Of a stretch of 64,000 nt of DNA, positions 12,795 through 39,907 are shown one piece after another. The DNA is from Rhodobiaceae bacterium (GTDB lineage Bacteria; Pseudomonadota; Alphaproteobacteria; RS24): contig JABJKE010000029.1 of NCBI GenBank assembly GCA_018660505.1, positions 1 through 64,000 of the forward strand, written 5' to 3'. Position numbers and translations under genes: made by a program. How positions within the stretch are numbered: position 1 is the first letter of the stretch; each line of letters begins with the position of its first letter. Below the pieces are notes generated by a model. The model was not told the DNA's origin. It saw nothing but the letters and a program-made list of their open reading frames with translations, and searched no databases.

Positions 12795-12823
12795 TTGCAC
12801 CCAAATGCGAATAAAAGTAGAAC
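12795..12823 (+). promoter_or_regulatory. Putative lexA promoter
   Basis: TTGCAC (12795-12800) and TAGAAC (12818-12823) are exactly 17 bp apart in the 85-bp trpC-lexA gap. The LexA box at 12830-12844 then falls across the expected transcription start, as needed for autorepression. Confidence 0.5.
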
Positions 12824-12860: not shown

Positions 12861-13523
12861 ATGCTTACGAAAAAACAATATGAACTTTTGTTGTTCATCA
12901 ATGAACGGTTAAAAGAGACCGGCGTGTCGCCCAGTTTTGACGAAATGAAGGAAGCTTTAAACCTGCGTTCGAAGTCTGGCATTCACCGTCTCATCACCGC
13001 TTTAGAAGAACGTGGCTTCATCAAACGCTTGGCTCACCGCGCCCGCGCGCTGGAAGTGGTGAAATTACCCGACACTATGTCATCCAGTCTGGCCAGCCCG
13101 TCTCGCGCCAGTGCGCCGCCCGTGGCAGCCAATGATGATCGCTCGATGTCGATCTCGGTTATGGGTCGCATTGCAGCGGGCACGCCCATTGAGGCGCTGC
13201 AAGAAGAAGTAAACCAAATTTCCGTTCCCCTCGAAATGTTACGCTCAGGAGAACATTATGCGCTCGAAGTGCATGGTGATTCGATGATTGAGGCAGGCAT
13301 TCTAGATGGCGATACAGCGATTATTCAAAATGGCGCGACCGCCGACAATGGCGAGATTGTTGTCGCCTTGGTTGAGGGCCATGAAGCGACCTTGAAACGC
13401 TTGCGTCGTAAAGGCGAAATGATTGCCCTTGAGGCGGCCAACCAAGCTTATGAAACCCGTATCTTTCGGGCCGACCAAGTGCGCGTGCAAGGGCGTCTTG
13501 TCGGGCTCATTCGTAAATATTAA
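12861..13523 (+). CDS. lexA: SOS repressor LexA
   Basis: Represses DNA-damage genes and cleaves itself when stimulated by RecA-ssDNA. 220 residues from [13 protein letters not shown], the standard start; the frame extends 22 codons further upstream through the operator, which is not plausible. Winged helix at residues 1-65, linker ~70-95. The cleavage site Ala106-Gly107 is in [10 protein letters not shown]. The catalytic dyad is Ser141 (HGDSM) and Lys179 (EATLKR). All residues needed for autocleavage are present. A strong terminator follows at 13547-13572. Confidence 0.97.
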
Positions 13524-32784: not shown

Positions 32785-35700
32785 TTAGACTTCCTCAACA
32801 TGCAAAACCCCAGGCACAGCCTTAATCGCGCCCGTGACGCGCGGGTTGATGGCATATTTATTCGGCAGGCGCAATTCCACCTCCCGCTCGGGGCTCATTA
32901 AAATCAGCGAAACCTCGCCGCCGGTTTTATGGCGCGGCTTCTCGACGTCCTCTAGGCGCGCCTTCAGGCCCGCACAGGCTTCGGGTTTTTCGACGAAAAT
33001 CCGCAAGCCGGCTTCCGTATGGGCCGCCACATCATCGACCGGGCGCATGCCTTGCATCAATAGCCGCAATTGCCCGTCATCGCGCTCCAGCTTCACCGTC
33101 GAGATGACCAAGGCGCCCACCTGCATATGCTCGCGCGATGCCTCCAAAGCTTTGGAGAAGGCCATCATCTCAAACTGGCCCGTCGGGTCGGATAAAGTGA
33201 CAAAAGCATAAGGATTGCCTTTGTCTTTCGATTTTCGTTCCTCGACTTTGGTAATCGCGCCCGCCACCATCACCTCTTTTTCGACCCGGGTTTCCAGCTC
33301 TTCAAAACTCGCCACCCGCGCCCGCTTCAACAGGGTTTTATAATCATCCAGCGGATGCCCCGACAAAAAGAAGCCAAGCGCATTATATTCATGGGTCAGC
33401 CGATCAATCGCCGACCAAGGCACCAAAGCAGCAGGCAGCACCACGCTCTCGCTGACGTCGGCCTCGCCAAACAGATTGTCTTGCTGCGTCTCTTTTTCGT
33501 TTTGGGCAATGCTCGCCTCGCCCAGCAAAACTGAAATACCGCCCATCAGCTTGGCTCTATCGGGCTCCAGACTATCGAGTGCGCCGGCGGCAATTAAATA
33601 TTCTAACAGGCGTTTGTTCAGCCCAATGCCGGCCGTGCGCCGCGCGAAGTCAAACACATCTTTATAGGCGCCATTTGCTTTGCGCTCTTCCACCACGCTT
33701 TGCATGGCCAGACTGCCGACATTGCGGATGGCCGAAAGCGCGTAGAAAATCTTATCGCCTTCGATGGAAAAAGCCGCTTGCGAACGATTAACATCGGGAA
33801 TGCAGGTGGTGATGTCATGTTTGGCGGCATCTTGAATGAAACTATTGAGCTTATCGGTGCGCTCAAAATCAAGCGACATGGAGGCCGCATAAAAGGCCAC
33901 CGGATGATTGGCCTTCAACCAGGCGGTTTGATAGGCGATTAACGCATAAGCGGCGGCGTGGCTTTTGTTAAACCCATAGCCAGCAAACCTATCGACTTGG
34001 TCGAAAATCAACGCCGCCTGATTGCGGTTCACTTCCAGCTCCACCGCGCCATCGATGAAACGGGCTTTTTGCGCCGTCATTTCGGCCTGAATTTTTTTGC
34101 CCATGGCGCGCCGCAGCAAATCCGCCTCGCCCAGCGAATAGCCCGACAGGGTTTGCGCGATTTGCATCACTTGTTCTTGGTAAATCATCACGCCGTAAGT
34201 CTCTTCCAAAATAGACTTCAGACTATCGTGCATGTAATCGGGTTCCTGCTCGCCCATTTTACAAGCGATATAGGTGGGAATATTATCCATTGGGCCCGGG
34301 CGATAAAGCGCCACAAGCGCGATAATATCTTCAAATTTATCGGGCCGCATTTTACGCAGCACATCGCGCATGCCCGAGCTTTCGAGTTGAAACACCCCAA
34401 TGGTGTCGCCGCGCCCCAGCAACTCATAGGTCTTTTCGTCATCCAGCGGCAGATTGTGAATATCCACTTTCGTGCCCGTGCCCTCAATCAGCTCGATGGC
34501 TTTTTCCAGCACGGTCAGGGTTTTCAGCCCCAAAAAGTCAAATTTCACCAACCCCGCTTTTTCGACCCATTTCATATTAAACTGGGTGACCGGCATGTCC
34601 GATTTCGGGTCGCGGTACAGCGCCACTAATTCTTGCAACGGCCTGTCCCCAATCACCACCCCCGCCGCATGGGTCGAGGCATGGCGATAGAGGCCTTCTA
34701 ATTTTAAACTAATCTCCAGCAGCTCGGCCACCTGCGGGTCACTATCGCGCTCGGCCTGCATGCGCGGCTCTTGCTCGATGGCTTCCGATAGGGTTACCGG
34801 ATTGGCTGGATTATTCGGCACCATTTTGGTCAGCCGGTCGATTTGCCCATAGGGCATTTGCAACACCCGCCCGACATCGCGCAACACAGCGCGGGCCTGC
34901 AATTTCCCGAAGGTGATGATTTGCGCCACTTGATCGCGGCCATATTTTTGCTGCACATAGGTAATCACTTCATCGCGGCGCGATTGGCAAAAATCAATAT
35001 CGAAATCAGGCATCGACACGCGTTCCGGATTGAGAAACCGCTCGAACAGCAAATTAAACCGCAATGGGTCTAAATCCGTGATGGTCAGCGCCCAAGCCAC
35101 AACCGAGCCCGCGCCCGACCCACGCCCGGGGCCGACGGCGATATTTCGCGATTTTGACCATTTGATGAAATCGGCAACAATCAGGAAATAGCCCGGAAAC
35201 CCCATATCGCCGATGACTTTCAGCTCAAAATCCAAACGCTCGCGATAGACTTTCTCTTCTGCCGCTGGGACAATCTGTTTCAGCCGCTCGCTCAGCCCCT
35301 CATGGGCTTGATTGGACAAGACCTCCAGCTCGTCGCCTTCGGCAAAAGCTGGCAAAATCGGCGGGTGCTCGGTCGGGCGAAAGGCACAGCGCTGGGCAAT
35401 CTCGACGCTGCTTTCTAAAGCTTCGGGTAAATCGGCGAATAAAGCGCACATTTCCTCGGCCGATTTCAGCCGATGGTCCGGCGTTAACCGACGTCGGTCG
35501 ACCTCATTTAAATAGCGTCCCTCGGCAATGCAAATCAGCGCGTCATGGGCCCGATAGTCTTCCGCCGAAGCAAAATAAGCCTGATTGGTCGCCACCAAAG
35601 GAACGTCCATAGCATAAGCAAAATCAATCAAGGTGCTTTCCGTCTCGGCATCTAGCGCATCTGTATAGCGTTGAAGCTCTACATAAATATTATCACCAAA

Positions 35701-36243
35701 GATATTGATATAGCTTGTTAATTTATCTTTTGCTTTATCTTTTCGATTGCTCGCCAGCAGCTTATCTACCGGGCCATCGGGGCCTCCGGTCAGGCAGATT
35801 AGCCCCTCGGCAAGGCGCGCCAATAGGGTCTCCTCGACGCCCGCCCCCAGTTTTCCGTCATCTTGCAAATGCGCCGCGCTAATCAGCGCCATTAAATTAT
35901 CGTAGCCCGTGCGGTTTTTCACCAGGAGAGCAATATCGCCCTCATCGGCCTCGGCGTCGCGCACCCGTAAGGTGGCGCCGATAATCGGCTGTAAGCCCAA
36001 AGCACTGGCCGTTTCGGCAAATTCTAGCGCGCCGAATAGATTATTGCGGTCGGTTACCGCCAAAGCGGGCATGCGCGCCGCCAAAGCCGTCTGGGTCAGC
36101 GTTTTAACCGGCAAGGCGCCCTCGAGCAGCGAATAGGCGCTATGGGTGCGTAAATGAATGAATTTAGGACGCATAAGCTCTACCACGCCCCCTTGTTGCC
36201 CGTGGCCGTGTGTCGGATGAAAAGAATCGGATGTTGCTGACAT
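32785..36243 (-). CDS. dnaE: DNA polymerase III alpha subunit
   Basis: Replicative polymerase. 1152 residues, DnaE1 type. PHP domain from FIHLRTHSAYSLLEGAL, palm with the catalytic aspartates in SMPDFDIDFCQSRRDEV, fingers/thumb with the KMGEQEPDY-to-YQEQVM block, helix-hairpin-helix and a C-terminal OB domain. Either the first Met (36243) or the Met at 36174 (MRPKFIHLR) could be the true start. The second begins closer to the conserved core, but neither has a clear ribosome site. It lies upstream of rpsB and downstream of the small SOS-type gene. Confidence 0.97.
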   Translation of the reverse strand: MSATSDSFHPTHGHGQQGGVVELMRPKFIHLRTHSAYSLLEGALPVKTLTQTALAARMPALAVTDRNNLFGALEFAETASALGLQPIIGATLRVRDAEADEGDIALLVKNRTGYDNLMALISAAHLQDDGKLGAGVEETLLARLAEGLICLTGGPDGPVDKLLASNRKDKAKDKLTSYINIFGDNIYVELQRYTDALDAETESTLIDFAYAMDVPLVATNQAYFASAEDYRAHDALICIAEGRYLNEVDRRRLTPDHRLKSAEEMCALFADLPEALESSVEIAQRCAFRPTEHPPILPAFAEGDELEVLSNQAHEGLSERLKQIVPAAEEKVYRERLDFELKVIGDMGFPGYFLIVADFIKWSKSRNIAVGPGRGSGAGSVVAWALTITDLDPLRFNLLFERFLNPERVSMPDFDIDFCQSRRDEVITYVQQKYGRDQVAQIITFGKLQARAVLRDVGRVLQMPYGQIDRLTKMVPNNPANPVTLSEAIEQEPRMQAERDSDPQVAELLEISLKLEGLYRHASTHAAGVVIGDRPLQELVALYRDPKSDMPVTQFNMKWVEKAGLVKFDFLGLKTLTVLEKAIELIEGTGTKVDIHNLPLDDEKTYELLGRGDTIGVFQLESSGMRDVLRKMRPDKFEDIIALVALYRPGPMDNIPTYIACKMGEQEPDYMHDSLKSILEETYGVMIYQEQVMQIAQTLSGYSLGEADLLRRAMGKKIQAEMTAQKARFIDGAVELEVNRNQAALIFDQVDRFAGYGFNKSHAAAYALIAYQTAWLKANHPVAFYAASMSLDFERTDKLNSFIQDAAKHDITTCIPDVNRSQAAFSIEGDKIFYALSAIRNVGSLAMQSVVEERKANGAYKDVFDFARRTAGIGLNKRLLEYLIAAGALDSLEPDRAKLMGGISVLLGEASIAQNEKETQQDNLFGEADVSESVVLPAALVPWSAIDRLTHEYNALGFFLSGHPLDDYKTLLKRARVASFEELETRVEKEVMVAGAITKVEERKSKDKGNPYAFVTLSDPTGQFEMMAFSKALEASREHMQVGALVISTVKLERDDGQLRLLMQGMRPVDDVAAHTEAGLRIFVEKPEACAGLKARLEDVEKPRHKTGGEVSLILMSPEREVELRLPNKYAINPRVTGAIKAVPGVLHVEEV

Positions 36244-36369
36244 GCACGCCTACACAAATATACGCCAAACTCAGAAACCGCGCGGCGGCGGAATCACTCG
36301 AACGTCTATCAGTTTAGCGCACGCATCGCCCCTGTCAGCAAAGGAGCGCGCACTTGGCGCAAATTAAAG

Positions 36370-36386
36370 GGGATAATTATTATCCC
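36370..36386 (-). other. Perfect inverted repeat over the stop of the 34-codon gene
   Basis: GGGATAAT (36370-36377) and ATTATCCC (36379-36386) flank a single base and include the stop codon of the small peptide gene. On the minus strand CTTTAATTT follows. It may be a weak terminator separating the peptide gene from dnaE, or an operator for dnaE. Confidence 0.4.
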
Positions 36387-36484
36387 GCCAATGCTTGGCC
36401 GATGGATCCCCACATAACAATCGCTGTGCCCATGGCCAGCAAAGTGCAAACGGTCAGAATATCTTCAAGTAAATTTGTCATCAT
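36380..36484 (-). CDS. 34-residue single-TM peptide under LexA control (SidA-like candidate)
   Basis: A 34-codon gene. It starts MMTNLLEDILT, continues as one hydrophobic helix (residues ~9-29, with LLAMGTAIVMW) and ends in a short Ala/Gly tail. A near-ideal ribosome site GAGGAG lies 4 bp before the first of two consecutive ATG codons. The promoter upstream has a consensus -35 and a perfect LexA box in its spacer, so expression should be SOS-induced. Known LexA-controlled one-helix peptides block cell division; Caulobacter SidA (29 residues, acting on FtsW/FtsN) is the closest precedent in size, topology and control. Sequence homology to SidA is not demonstrated, so function is inferred. It sits alone between lolD and dnaE. 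Confidence 0.75.
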   Translation of the reverse strand: MMTNLLEDILTVCTLLAMGTAIVMWGSIGQALAG

Positions 36485-36502
36485 TTTCTCCTCATTAAGA
36501 TA

Positions 36503-36531
36503 ATAATGTTCACTTTTTGTTCTTTTGTCAA
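36503..36531 (-). promoter_or_regulatory. Promoter of the 34-codon gene
   Basis: Minus strand: TTGACA (-35, 36526-36531, full consensus), 17-bp spacer, CATTAT (-10, 36503-36508). The transcription start would fall about 12 bp before the ATG. It begins ~57 bp after the lolD stop, so the small gene has its own strong promoter. Confidence 0.7.
36508..36522. promoter_or_regulatory. Perfect LexA box GTTC-N7-GTTC
   Basis: GTTCACTTTTTGTTC on the plus strand (GAAC-N7-GAAC on the minus) is an exact match to the alphaproteobacterial LexA operator. It sits inside the -35/-10 spacer of the promoter at 36503-36531, where bound LexA would exclude RNA polymerase. Confidence 0.85.
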
Positions 36532-36587: not shown

Positions 36588-37265
36588 TTAAACGGTTGTA
36601 ATCAGCCCGTCGCGCAAGCGCACGATGCGGTCGGCGCGCGCCGCCAAATCCATATCATGGGTCGCCAGCAAAACCGAACTGCCTTGCGCGCGCGCTTCGC
36701 TGAGCAAAAGATCGGCAACTTTATCGCCAGCTGCGCCATCGAGGCTGCCCGTGGGCTCATCGGCCAGCACCAAAGCGGGCCTATTGGTCAGCGCGCGGGC
36801 AATGGCCACACGTTGTTGTTCGCCGCCGGAAAGCTGCGACGGCAAATGGCTCGCCCTATCGGCCAAACCCAGTTTCTCAATCAAGGCAGAGGCTTTGGCC
36901 AAAGCTTGTGCTTTGCTATCGCCCGCCAAACGCGCCGGCATGGCGACGTTCTCCAGCGCAGTGAACTCGGGCAATAAATTATGGAATTGATAGACAAAGC
37001 CGATATGTGCGCGGCGCAACGCCGTGCGGGCTTTATCATCGGCATCGGTAACCACCTGCCCCTTTAGGGTAAGGCTGCCCTGCTCTGGCTTTTCCATCAG
37101 CCCGGCGATATGCAAGAGGCTCGATTTGCCCGAGCCGCTGGGCCCGACAAGTGCCACCACTTCGCCTTGGCCAATTTCCAAGGCGGCGCCTTGCAGCACG
37201 GGCAAAACCTTGGTGCCCTGCTGGAAGCTCTGATGGATATTGGTAAGGGCGAAATGGCTACTCAT
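36588..37265 (-). CDS. lolD: Lipoprotein-releasing ABC transporter ATPase LolD
   Basis: ATPase that powers extraction of lipoproteins from the inner membrane for delivery to LolA. 225 residues. Walker A GPSGSGKSS at 41-49, the signature LSGGEQQRVAIARAL, Walker B LVLADEPTGSLD and the H-loop ATHDMDLA. Its first 8 bp overlap the end of lolC, so the two are translationally coupled. Confidence 0.96.
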   Translation of the reverse strand: MSSHFALTNIHQSFQQGTKVLPVLQGAALEIGQGEVVALVGPSGSGKSSLLHIAGLMEKPEQGSLTLKGQVVTDADDKARTALRRAHIGFVYQFHNLLPEFTALENVAMPARLAGDSKAQALAKASALIEKLGLADRASHLPSQLSGGEQQRVAIARALTNRPALVLADEPTGSLDGAAGDKVADLLLSEARAQGSSVLLATHDMDLAARADRIVRLRDGLITTV

Positions 37266-38511
37266 TGCGCAAAGCCTCCACAGGTTCCATGGAAGCCGCT
37301 CGCCAAGCCGGGTAAAGCGTCGAGAAAAACGACAGGGTCAGCGCCATGCCGGTAACTTGCAGCAAATCTTTGGTCAGGATAAGCGCTGGCATGCGCTCGA
37401 GAAAATACACTTCGGCGGGAAACAGATTGGCGCCCGTCGACCAAATGAGGAATTGTCGAATTTCTTCAATATAGGCACAAAACAACGTCCCCAGCCCCAC
37501 GCCCGCTATCGTGCCAAATACGCCAATGCTGGCGCCCGTGATGAAAAACACTCGCAATATCAGCCCGCGCGACGCCCCCATAGAGCGCAAAACGGCGATA
37601 TCCCGCCCCTTATCGCGCACCAACATCACCAGACCGGAAATAATATTCAGCGCCGCGACCAGCAAAATCATCGTCAAAATCATAAACATGACATTGCGCT
37701 CGACCTCTAGCGCACCCGCCAATGTGCTATTGCTCTGTTTCCAATCGACGACATAATGCCCCGCGCCCACCACATCGCGCAATTCGGGCGCGCGTTGGTC
37801 AATCGTATCTGGGTCGTCCAGTACCACATCAATGGCGCCTTGGTTTTCGCTGAGGCCAAAAAACGCGCCCGCCGAACCGATGGGCATAAAGGTGAAATTC
37901 AAATCATATTCCGATAGGCCAATGCGAAAAATCGCCGCCAATTTAAACTGTTTCAACCGCGGCGCCGTGCCAAAGGGCGTTATCGTGCCGCGCGGCGAAA
38001 TGAGCGACACACGGTCGCCAATTTTAAAGCCATGGCGTTCCGCCAAGCGCACGCCCATGGCAATCGTATTGGTTCCGGTTAAATCATCCAGCGACCCGTC
38101 GATGATATTGCCTTGCAAGCTCGGCAATTGTTTCAGCTTATCGAGCGGCAAGCCGCGCACCAAAACACCGCGCACGGCAGACCCAGACGACAACATGGCT
38201 TGGCCATCGACCAAGGGCGTGGCGAACACCACGCCATCCGCCACTTCGAGTTTTTTCACCAAAGCGTCGCGGTCGATAAATTCATTTTGATAGGCGCGAA
38301 TGGTGGCATGGCCATTGACGCCGAGAATACGCTCCAATAAATCAGCGCGAAAGCCCGTCATCACCGCCATCACAACAATCAGCGTGGCGACGCCCAACAT
38401 AATGCCAATAAAGGAAATGCCGGCAATGACCGAGATGAAACTCTCGCGTCGGCGAGAGCGCAGATAGCGGCCAGCAATTTGCCATTCTAGGGCGCCAAAG
38501 GCTCGCGTCAT
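37258..38511 (-). CDS. lolC: Lipoprotein-releasing ABC transporter permease (LolC/LolE family)
   Basis: 417 residues from the ATG at 38511 (MTRAFGALEWQIAGRYLRSRR); the longer frame overlaps proS. One membrane helix near the N-terminus (~28-50), a large periplasmic domain (~50-270) and three C-terminal helices, the LolCE/MacB-permease topology. Only one permease gene accompanies lolD, so the transporter is probably a homodimer of this protein, as in other alphaproteobacteria. Confidence 0.94.
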   Translation of the reverse strand: MTRAFGALEWQIAGRYLRSRRRESFISVIAGISFIGIMLGVATLIVVMAVMTGFRADLLERILGVNGHATIRAYQNEFIDRDALVKKLEVADGVVFATPLVDGQAMLSSGSAVRGVLVRGLPLDKLKQLPSLQGNIIDGSLDDLTGTNTIAMGVRLAERHGFKIGDRVSLISPRGTITPFGTAPRLKQFKLAAIFRIGLSEYDLNFTFMPIGSAGAFFGLSENQGAIDVVLDDPDTIDQRAPELRDVVGAGHYVVDWKQSNSTLAGALEVERNVMFMILTMILLVAALNIISGLVMLVRDKGRDIAVLRSMGASRGLILRVFFITGASIGVFGTIAGVGLGTLFCAYIEEIRQFLIWSTGANLFPAEVYFLERMPALILTKDLLQVTGMALTLSFFSTLYPAWRAASMEPVEALRNE

Positions 38512-38539
38512 AGGGCTATCCTGCTTTCCATCTCTCGTT

Positions 38540-39907
38540 CTATTGGGCGCTTTCGGGCGGCGACGACAGTAAGGCAATCGCCGCGTCCAGAGCCAATACG
38601 TGTTTTTCGCCGGTAGCGCGGTTTTTTATCTCGACTTCTTGCCCCTCGGCCCCGCGCGGGCCAATCACCGCCTGCCAAGGCAAGCCGATGAGGTCCATGG
38701 TCGAGAATTTAGCGCCCGCCCTTTCGTCTCTATCATCATAGAGAACATCAAGGCCGTTTTGTGACAGCGTGTCAAACAGGCGCGCGCACAGAGCATCACA
38801 GCCCTCATGGCCCGGTTTTAGGTTAATCAGCCCCACATGAAAGGGCGCCACCGCCCACGGCCAGACAATGCCATCGTCGTCATGGCTGGCCTCGATAATG
38901 CCCCCCACCAAACGCGATATGCCAATGCCGTAAGAGCCGCTATGCACGGCCGTGTCTTTGCCATCGGGGCCCGCCACCAGCGCTTTCATCGCGGTGGAAT
39001 ATTTTTGTCCGAAGTAGAAAATATGCCCCACTTCAATGCCGCGCGCGGTCACTTGCTTGTCGGCGGGCACTTGCGCTTCAAACATCGCGCTATCATGCAT
39101 TTCGTCGGAACGCGCATAATATTGCGTGAAGCTTTCGATGAGAGGTGCCAAATCGCCAGTGTCGTCCCCCATAAGCTCGGCCTCCGGCACGGGCAAATCG
39201 AGGATATCGCTATGGCAAAAAACCTCCGACTCGCCGGTCTCGGCGAGGATGATAAATTCATGGCTCAAATCGCCGCCAATCGGCCCCGTGTCGGCCGCCA
39301 CCGGCATGGCTTTGAGCCCCATGCGACGAAAGCTGCGCAGATAAGCGAGGAACATTTTATAATAGGCGGTGCGGGCGGAAGCCTCGTCGATATCGAAACT
39401 ATAGCCATCTTTCATCAAAAACTCGCGGCCACGCATCACCCCAAACCGAGGGCGAATCTCGTCGCGGAATTTCCACTGAATATGATACAGGTTTTTCGGC
39501 AAATCCTTATAGCTGACCACATTATCGCGAAAAATCTGCGTAATCAGCTCTTCATTGGTCGGCCCGTAAAGCAGGTCTCTGCCATGGCGGTCGGTGATGC
39601 GCAGCATTTCTTTGCCATAATCTTCATAACGCCCCGACTCGCGCCAAATATCGGCCGATTGCAAAGTCGGCATCAACATTTCAATGGCGCCCGCTTTGGC
39701 TTGCTCTTCGCGCACAATGGTTTCGATTTTGCGCAAAGCCTTGAGGCCCAGAGGCAGCCAGCTATATAGGCCCGCAGCGCTTTGGCGCACCATCCCGGCC
39801 CGCAACATCAATCGATGCGAGACAATTTGCGCCTCGGAAGGGGTCTCTTTCAGCGTCGGTAAAAAATAATTCGACATCCGCTGCGACTGGCTTTGGGGTG
39901 AAGACAT
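38540..39907 (-). CDS. proS: Prolyl-tRNA synthetase, short alphaproteobacterial type
   Basis: Charges tRNA-Pro. About 455 residues from the ATG at 39907; an internal ATG at 39877 ([11 protein letters not shown]) is nearer the conserved core and may be used. Class II motifs are [35 protein letters not shown] and [17 protein letters not shown]. The ~180-residue editing insertion of E. coli-type ProS is missing, as is normal for the shorter alphaproteobacterial form. The C-terminal anticodon-binding domain is complete. It lies 28 bp upstream of lolC. Confidence 0.96.

Follow-up and report, generated by a model that had tools for sequence, protein, structure and literature searches.

SidA of Caulobacter is a peptide of 29 amino acids that binds FtsW and keeps FtsW/I/N inactive, and overproduction of sidA in trans blocks division (PMC4211646). 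Loss of LexA gives filamentous Caulobacter cells, an effect owing to sidA (PMC12700426), and the structure models reported for SidA with FtsW are all of low confidence (PMC13396833). Outside Caulobacter, no description of SidA was found in the literature searched, which left out the original 2011 description (Genes Dev).

Here we describe an overlooked micro-sized gene that a small marine bacterium of the PS1 clade carries in the gap separating two of its housekeeping genes. It lies on a 64-kb stretch of DNA, the whole of which is referred to below as the window. The locus as a whole is best explained as the PS1-clade orthologue of sidA, and probably encodes a LexA-repressed, damage-induced peptide that would delay division.

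Layout of the micropeptide gene and evidence for translation

The micropeptide gene occupies positions 36380..36481 on the minus strand. Its downstream neighbour, which served as the synteny anchor, is dnaE (DNA polymerase III alpha; 32785..36243, minus strand), a DnaE1 with all DnaE domains. Upstream, also on the minus strand, are a lolD-like ABC ATPase gene (36588..37265), whose best NCBIfam match, TIGR02211 LolD, is below the cut-off, and a lolC/E permease gene (37258..38577) matching TIGR02212 above the cut-off. The elements named in the initial annotation, a GAGGAG ribosome-binding site, a single helix, a TTGACA hexamer, a 17-bp spacer and an exact GTTC-N7-GTTC repeat within that spacer, are all present on the minus strand.

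The frame begins with two adjacent ATG codons (36484-36479) and ends with a stop codon at 36382-36380. GAGGAG (36488..36493, minus strand) lies 3 nt from the first ATG and 6 nt from the second. A start at 36484 would give 34 amino acids, as originally proposed; the frame stood, and the first ATG proved not to be the conserved start. The second ATG is kept across relatives, most of which have only that one of the pair, and a member of the genus (locus L004) has ATT where the window has the first ATG. The peptide is therefore more likely to be the 33-amino-acid form (MTNLLEDIL...; MTNLLEDILTVCTLLAMGTAIVMWGSIGQALAG), with a ribosome-site spacing of 6 rather than 3 nt.

The gene was found in 12 of 12 genomes of the genus (that of the window and 11 others), each time with an exact LexA box, and a search of 40 relatives recovered it in 8 of 13 other genomes of the family (E <= 2e-5). 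Among the family genomes beyond those eight, G013 has a diverged form of 26 residues, preceded by a box, and G019 a partly masked copy, both in the same slot. Those relatives that have names are marine PS1-clade and 'Rhodobiaceae' MAGs. Within subgroups of the family set (20 loci), dN/dS of the frame was 0.085, 0.026 and 0.038, and pairwise differences within the genus at codon positions 1, 2 and 3 numbered 265, 130 and 818. Low dN/dS and presence throughout the genus thus identify the frame as a real translated gene under strong purifying selection, as judged from the aligned coding sequences. In the pattern M..xxEDI....LL..G...I..WG.IG.ALA, the M, E-D, L, W, I-G and A-L are invariant. AlphaFold2 predicted a single helix spanning residues 2-33 of 34, with a mean pLDDT of 91. 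Searches of Pfam, NCBIfam, PHROGs and PDB sequences with the peptide gave no useful match, and no phage-encoded relatives were found in viral contigs. SulA, a soluble FtsZ-binding protein, was considered and ruled out, as the product here is a membrane helix of 33-34 amino acids matching no Pfam or NCBIfam family.

Promoter and LexA box

The -35 hexamer TTGACA (36526..36531, minus strand) is separated by 17 bp from a -10 hexamer, CATTAT (36503..36508, minus strand), that agrees with the consensus at four of six positions. The LexA box GAACAAAAAGTGAAC (36508..36522, minus strand) lies in the spacer of this promoter and shares position 36508 with the -10 element. Exact boxes were present at all 20 family loci. 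The initial annotation would have taken a lack of conserved frame and box in related genomes as a refutation; both are conserved in the family, and a box with a peptide was seen in 11 families (see below). Of 39 loci examined in various families, 33 have the arrangement TTGAC-N(2-8)-GAACN7GAAC, which places the repressor site within the promoter spacer. LexA would be expected to bind at 36508-36522.

The only match to a LexA family model in the genome is encoded within the window itself (lexA, 12861..13523, plus strand). A near-match box with one mismatch, GAATAAAAGTAGAAC, is found 37 nt before lexA (12809..12823, plus strand), one-mismatch boxes being common in the window (19 found, 36 expected). 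Exact boxes number only 13 in the whole 1.77-Mb genome (loci L237-L249 of G000), and three of these are in promoter position before a recognised SOS gene or the micropeptide gene, namely at recA, imuA and the micropeptide gene itself. The 15-mer at recA is identical to the micropeptide box in every letter, and that at imuA differs by one base; the imuA gene was called from an NCBIfam match (NF033429, E 9e-16) below the cut-off. Another of the 13, L244 (G000 C37:34504-34518), has a T-rich spacer (GTTCGCTCTTTGTTC), and the only long frame nearby looks spurious; this box may belong to an RNA gene, or to a short gene missing from the annotation, that lies downstream of it.

The sidA slot in Caulobacter

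A CtrA sequence that we take to be that of Caulobacter, used as a genus probe, matched at 100% in five genomes, all of one genus. That genus was taken to be Caulobacter, an assignment supported independently by a nucleoside hydrolase neighbour of the peptide gene and by the FtsW of one of its genomes (G497), in which A31, F145 and A246 agree with the numbering in the literature (PMC4211646). The slot before dnaE in this genus contains a LexA box, GAACATCTTGTGAAC, and a 29-residue one-helix peptide, adjoined by an inosine-uridine nucleoside hydrolase gene and with dnaE on the other side. In the literature, sidA is CCNA_02004 (PMC10769358), CCNA_02005 is a nucleoside hydrolase (PMC3667746) and Caulobacter dnaE is CC1926 (PMC1839093). 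By peptide length, locus tags and neighbours, the slot before dnaE is therefore sidA, which bears out the tentative statement in the initial annotation that sidA is near dnaE.

The alignment with Caulobacter SidA that had been proposed as a check was weak and not significant when done directly: hhalign of PS1 peptides against Caulobacteraceae SidA gave E 0.015 and a probability of 2.9, and 14 of 300 and 23 of 300 column shuffles equalled it. The relationship held up through a third family, f10. PS1 against f10 gave a probability of 95 and E 5e-8, f10 against Caulobacteraceae a probability of 92 and E 5e-7, and in both comparisons none of 150 column shuffles was as good. Peptides of f10 combine the SidA core RE/D..LALASV..F.W with the W-x-x-I tail of PS1, and their genes have a box and occupy the lolD-dnaE slot, as in PS1. 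The initial proposal, that the gene is an analogue or orthologue of SidA under LexA control, is supported by the recA-identical box, the sidA slot and the homology bridged by f10. On these grounds of regulation, position and transitive homology, the window gene can be treated as an orthologue of SidA, albeit distant kin.

Two further observations were made in Caulobacteraceae. Eleven loci of genus g68 (L187, L188, L189, L192, L195, L197, L198, L201, L202, L203 and L205) have, upstream of their sidA-like gene, tandem LexA boxes at a spacing of exactly 18 bp (for example GAACGTAAACAGAAC and GAACATAAACGGAAC), which suggests cooperative or tighter control by LexA. No exact LexA box was seen before dnaE at L230 and L231 (genus g292), L226, L228 and L234, where the gene or the box may be lost or degenerate.

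Alternative explanations of the locus

TisB of E. coli is a tiny LexA-controlled peptide with one helix, amphipathic and lysine-bearing, in the inner membrane. The window gene could likewise encode an SOS toxin, a one-helix peptide under LexA whose effect is membrane depolarisation or entry into dormancy and not an action on the divisome. The shared outline, which extends to DinQ (PMC3567139), is LexA control, tiny size, one helix and an inner-membrane location. Against such a toxin, the slot and the promoter are those of sidA, and there is the sequence link to SidA. In the PS1 alignment the helix carries no charged residues past the N-terminal E-D, whereas that of TisB is amphipathic with lysines. 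An antisense-RNA element was not seen in a scan of the locus, where promoter-like matches do exist on the opposite strand. We consider a toxin of this type unlikely.

Across the class, the orthologue of sidA proposed here is directly upstream of dnaE and co-oriented with it, as would also be expected of a leader peptide or an SOS promoter whose purpose is a damage-induced increase in dnaE expression and whose peptide product has little function of its own. The amino-acid sequence is, however, strongly selected, and Caulobacter sidA inhibits division when overproduced in trans (PMC4211646). Two weak features between the genes also speak against a leader. A tentative terminator-like hairpin formed by GGGATAATAATTATCCC and CTTTAATTT (36370..36386, minus strand) overlaps the stop codon of the peptide gene, such hairpins being about as frequent in shuffled sequence (1 found, 0.7 expected), and a weak promoter-like site, CTGACA..TAAACT, precedes dnaE at 36311-36338 of the window. 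From the hairpin and this site, it appears that dnaE may have a promoter of its own. A GGGG-TTAT-CCCC sequence similar to the hairpin occurs downstream of the peptide gene in several relatives, and the motif TTTGCTGACAG is repeated downstream of the peptide in relatives of the genus. A role confined to dnaE expression is in our judgement very unlikely.

GTTC-N7-GTTC by itself is at chance level in the window (one exact box against 1.36 expected, and at least one in 75 of 100 shuffles), so that the case rests on comparative evidence: the box is above chance because of its identity with the recA box, its presence at 20 of 20 family loci, the purifying selection and its recurrence across the class. 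A random short frame beside a random box has a negligible probability and is already refuted by the comparative data, since frame, box, promoter and position are all conserved, both within the family and across the class.

Distribution in Alphaproteobacteria

A profile of the PS1 peptides was searched over 385 genomes of the class. It returned chiefly noise and weak matches (E 0.01-0.1), and the weak matches were counted only if they were located between lolD and dnaE and accompanied by a box. Those in G033, G166, G027, G013, G264 and G224 fall in a lolC-lolD-[box+peptide]-dnaE slot, the stretch read in G224 covering lolD and the box only. A further survey used the DnaE N-terminus as its anchor, took no account of the peptide and covered 106 loci. 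All 15 gene-oriented boxes before dnaE, three of them at loci of the window's own family, precede a ribosome site and a one-helix membrane micro-ORF. On the opposite strand this was so in 0 of 15 cases, and at loci without a gene-oriented box in 6 of 90 at an equivalent position. Box and peptide were found in 11 families (f1, f4, f10, f41, f57, f63, f70, f82, f91, f121 and f123), and the most diverged of these are linked by position and regulation, not by sequence. In many other genomes the gene is absent and the gap between lolD and dnaE is short.

On balance we favour, with moderate confidence, the view that SidA is no peculiarity of Caulobacter and that Alphaproteobacteria inherited it as their SOS division checkpoint. 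In this view the micropeptide gene, under LexA control, became fixed before dnaE in many families and diverged almost past recognition; its small size keeps it out of annotations, and its promoter is among the very few in streamlined marine genomes to have a consensus LexA box. The single gene is, by function and position, of an already known type; its apparent class-wide spread, of which no description was found in the papers searched, is the more notable aspect, and priority for it is not claimed with certainty.

For the PS1 marine lineage, most of which is uncultured, the locus predicts a division checkpoint that responds to DNA damage, and it suggests that some dozen diverged homologues of SidA are spread over the class. 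Such a set would be usable for co-variation mapping of how a 30-residue helix inhibits FtsW, and a simple synteny rule, a LexA box in the lolD/dnaE gap, could be used to find SOS division inhibitors that escape searches by homology.

Proposed mode of action

From the geometry of box and promoter, LexA bound at 36508-36522, between the -35 and -10 elements, would block RNA polymerase in undamaged cells. On DNA damage, RecA-promoted self-cleavage of LexA would free the near-consensus promoter, and the single-helix peptide of 33-34 residues would be made and enter the inner membrane. By analogy with SidA, it would most likely engage the FtsW/FtsI/FtsN septal wall-synthesis complex and delay constriction until repair is complete. 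The initial annotation named both FtsW and FtsN as the route of SidA action; SidA does bind FtsW, but FtsN is the partner of DidA (PMC4211646). FtsW is present in the PS1 genome, in a mur cluster. At the SidA-suppressor sites A31/F145/A246 it has G/F/A, the SidA-specific A31 being a glycine. Inhibition of division through FtsW by the window peptide is thus a prediction drawn from its Caulobacter counterpart.

Comparison with known systems

The small SOS-induced membrane division inhibitors of Gram-positives, YneA, SosA, ChiZ and DivS, resemble the PS1 peptide as predicted here but are longer, in some cases with a LysM domain, and are unrelated in sequence and in type of LexA box (PMC13396833, PMC4211646, PMC9578287). 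DidA of Caulobacter is also a small, DNA-damage-induced division inhibitor with one helix; it differs in having 71 amino acids, in being SOS-independent (DriD), in binding FtsN (PMC4211646) and in its locus.

The single-helix peptides TisB and DinQ of E. coli are under LexA, as the PS1 peptide is predicted to be, and differ from it in that sequence and locus are unrelated. TisB is under antisense-RNA control and acts on the membrane. The same two differences from the PS1 peptide apply to DinQ (PMC3567139).

The closest described system is SidA of Caulobacter crescentus (CCNA_02004), which, like the PS1 gene, combines a LexA-box promoter with a one-helix micropeptide immediately upstream of dnaE. 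SidA has 29 amino acids and a basic N-terminus (R..RE), whereas the PS1 peptide has 33-34 and an acidic N-terminus with the conserved E-D. The PS1 helix runs on into a C-terminal WGxIGxALA tail that SidA does not have; with the acidic N-terminus, this longer tail could possibly reflect a shift in topology or in binding partner. The gene order also differs, as lolD adjoins the peptide gene in PS1 but is separated from sidA by a nucleoside hydrolase gene in Caulobacter.
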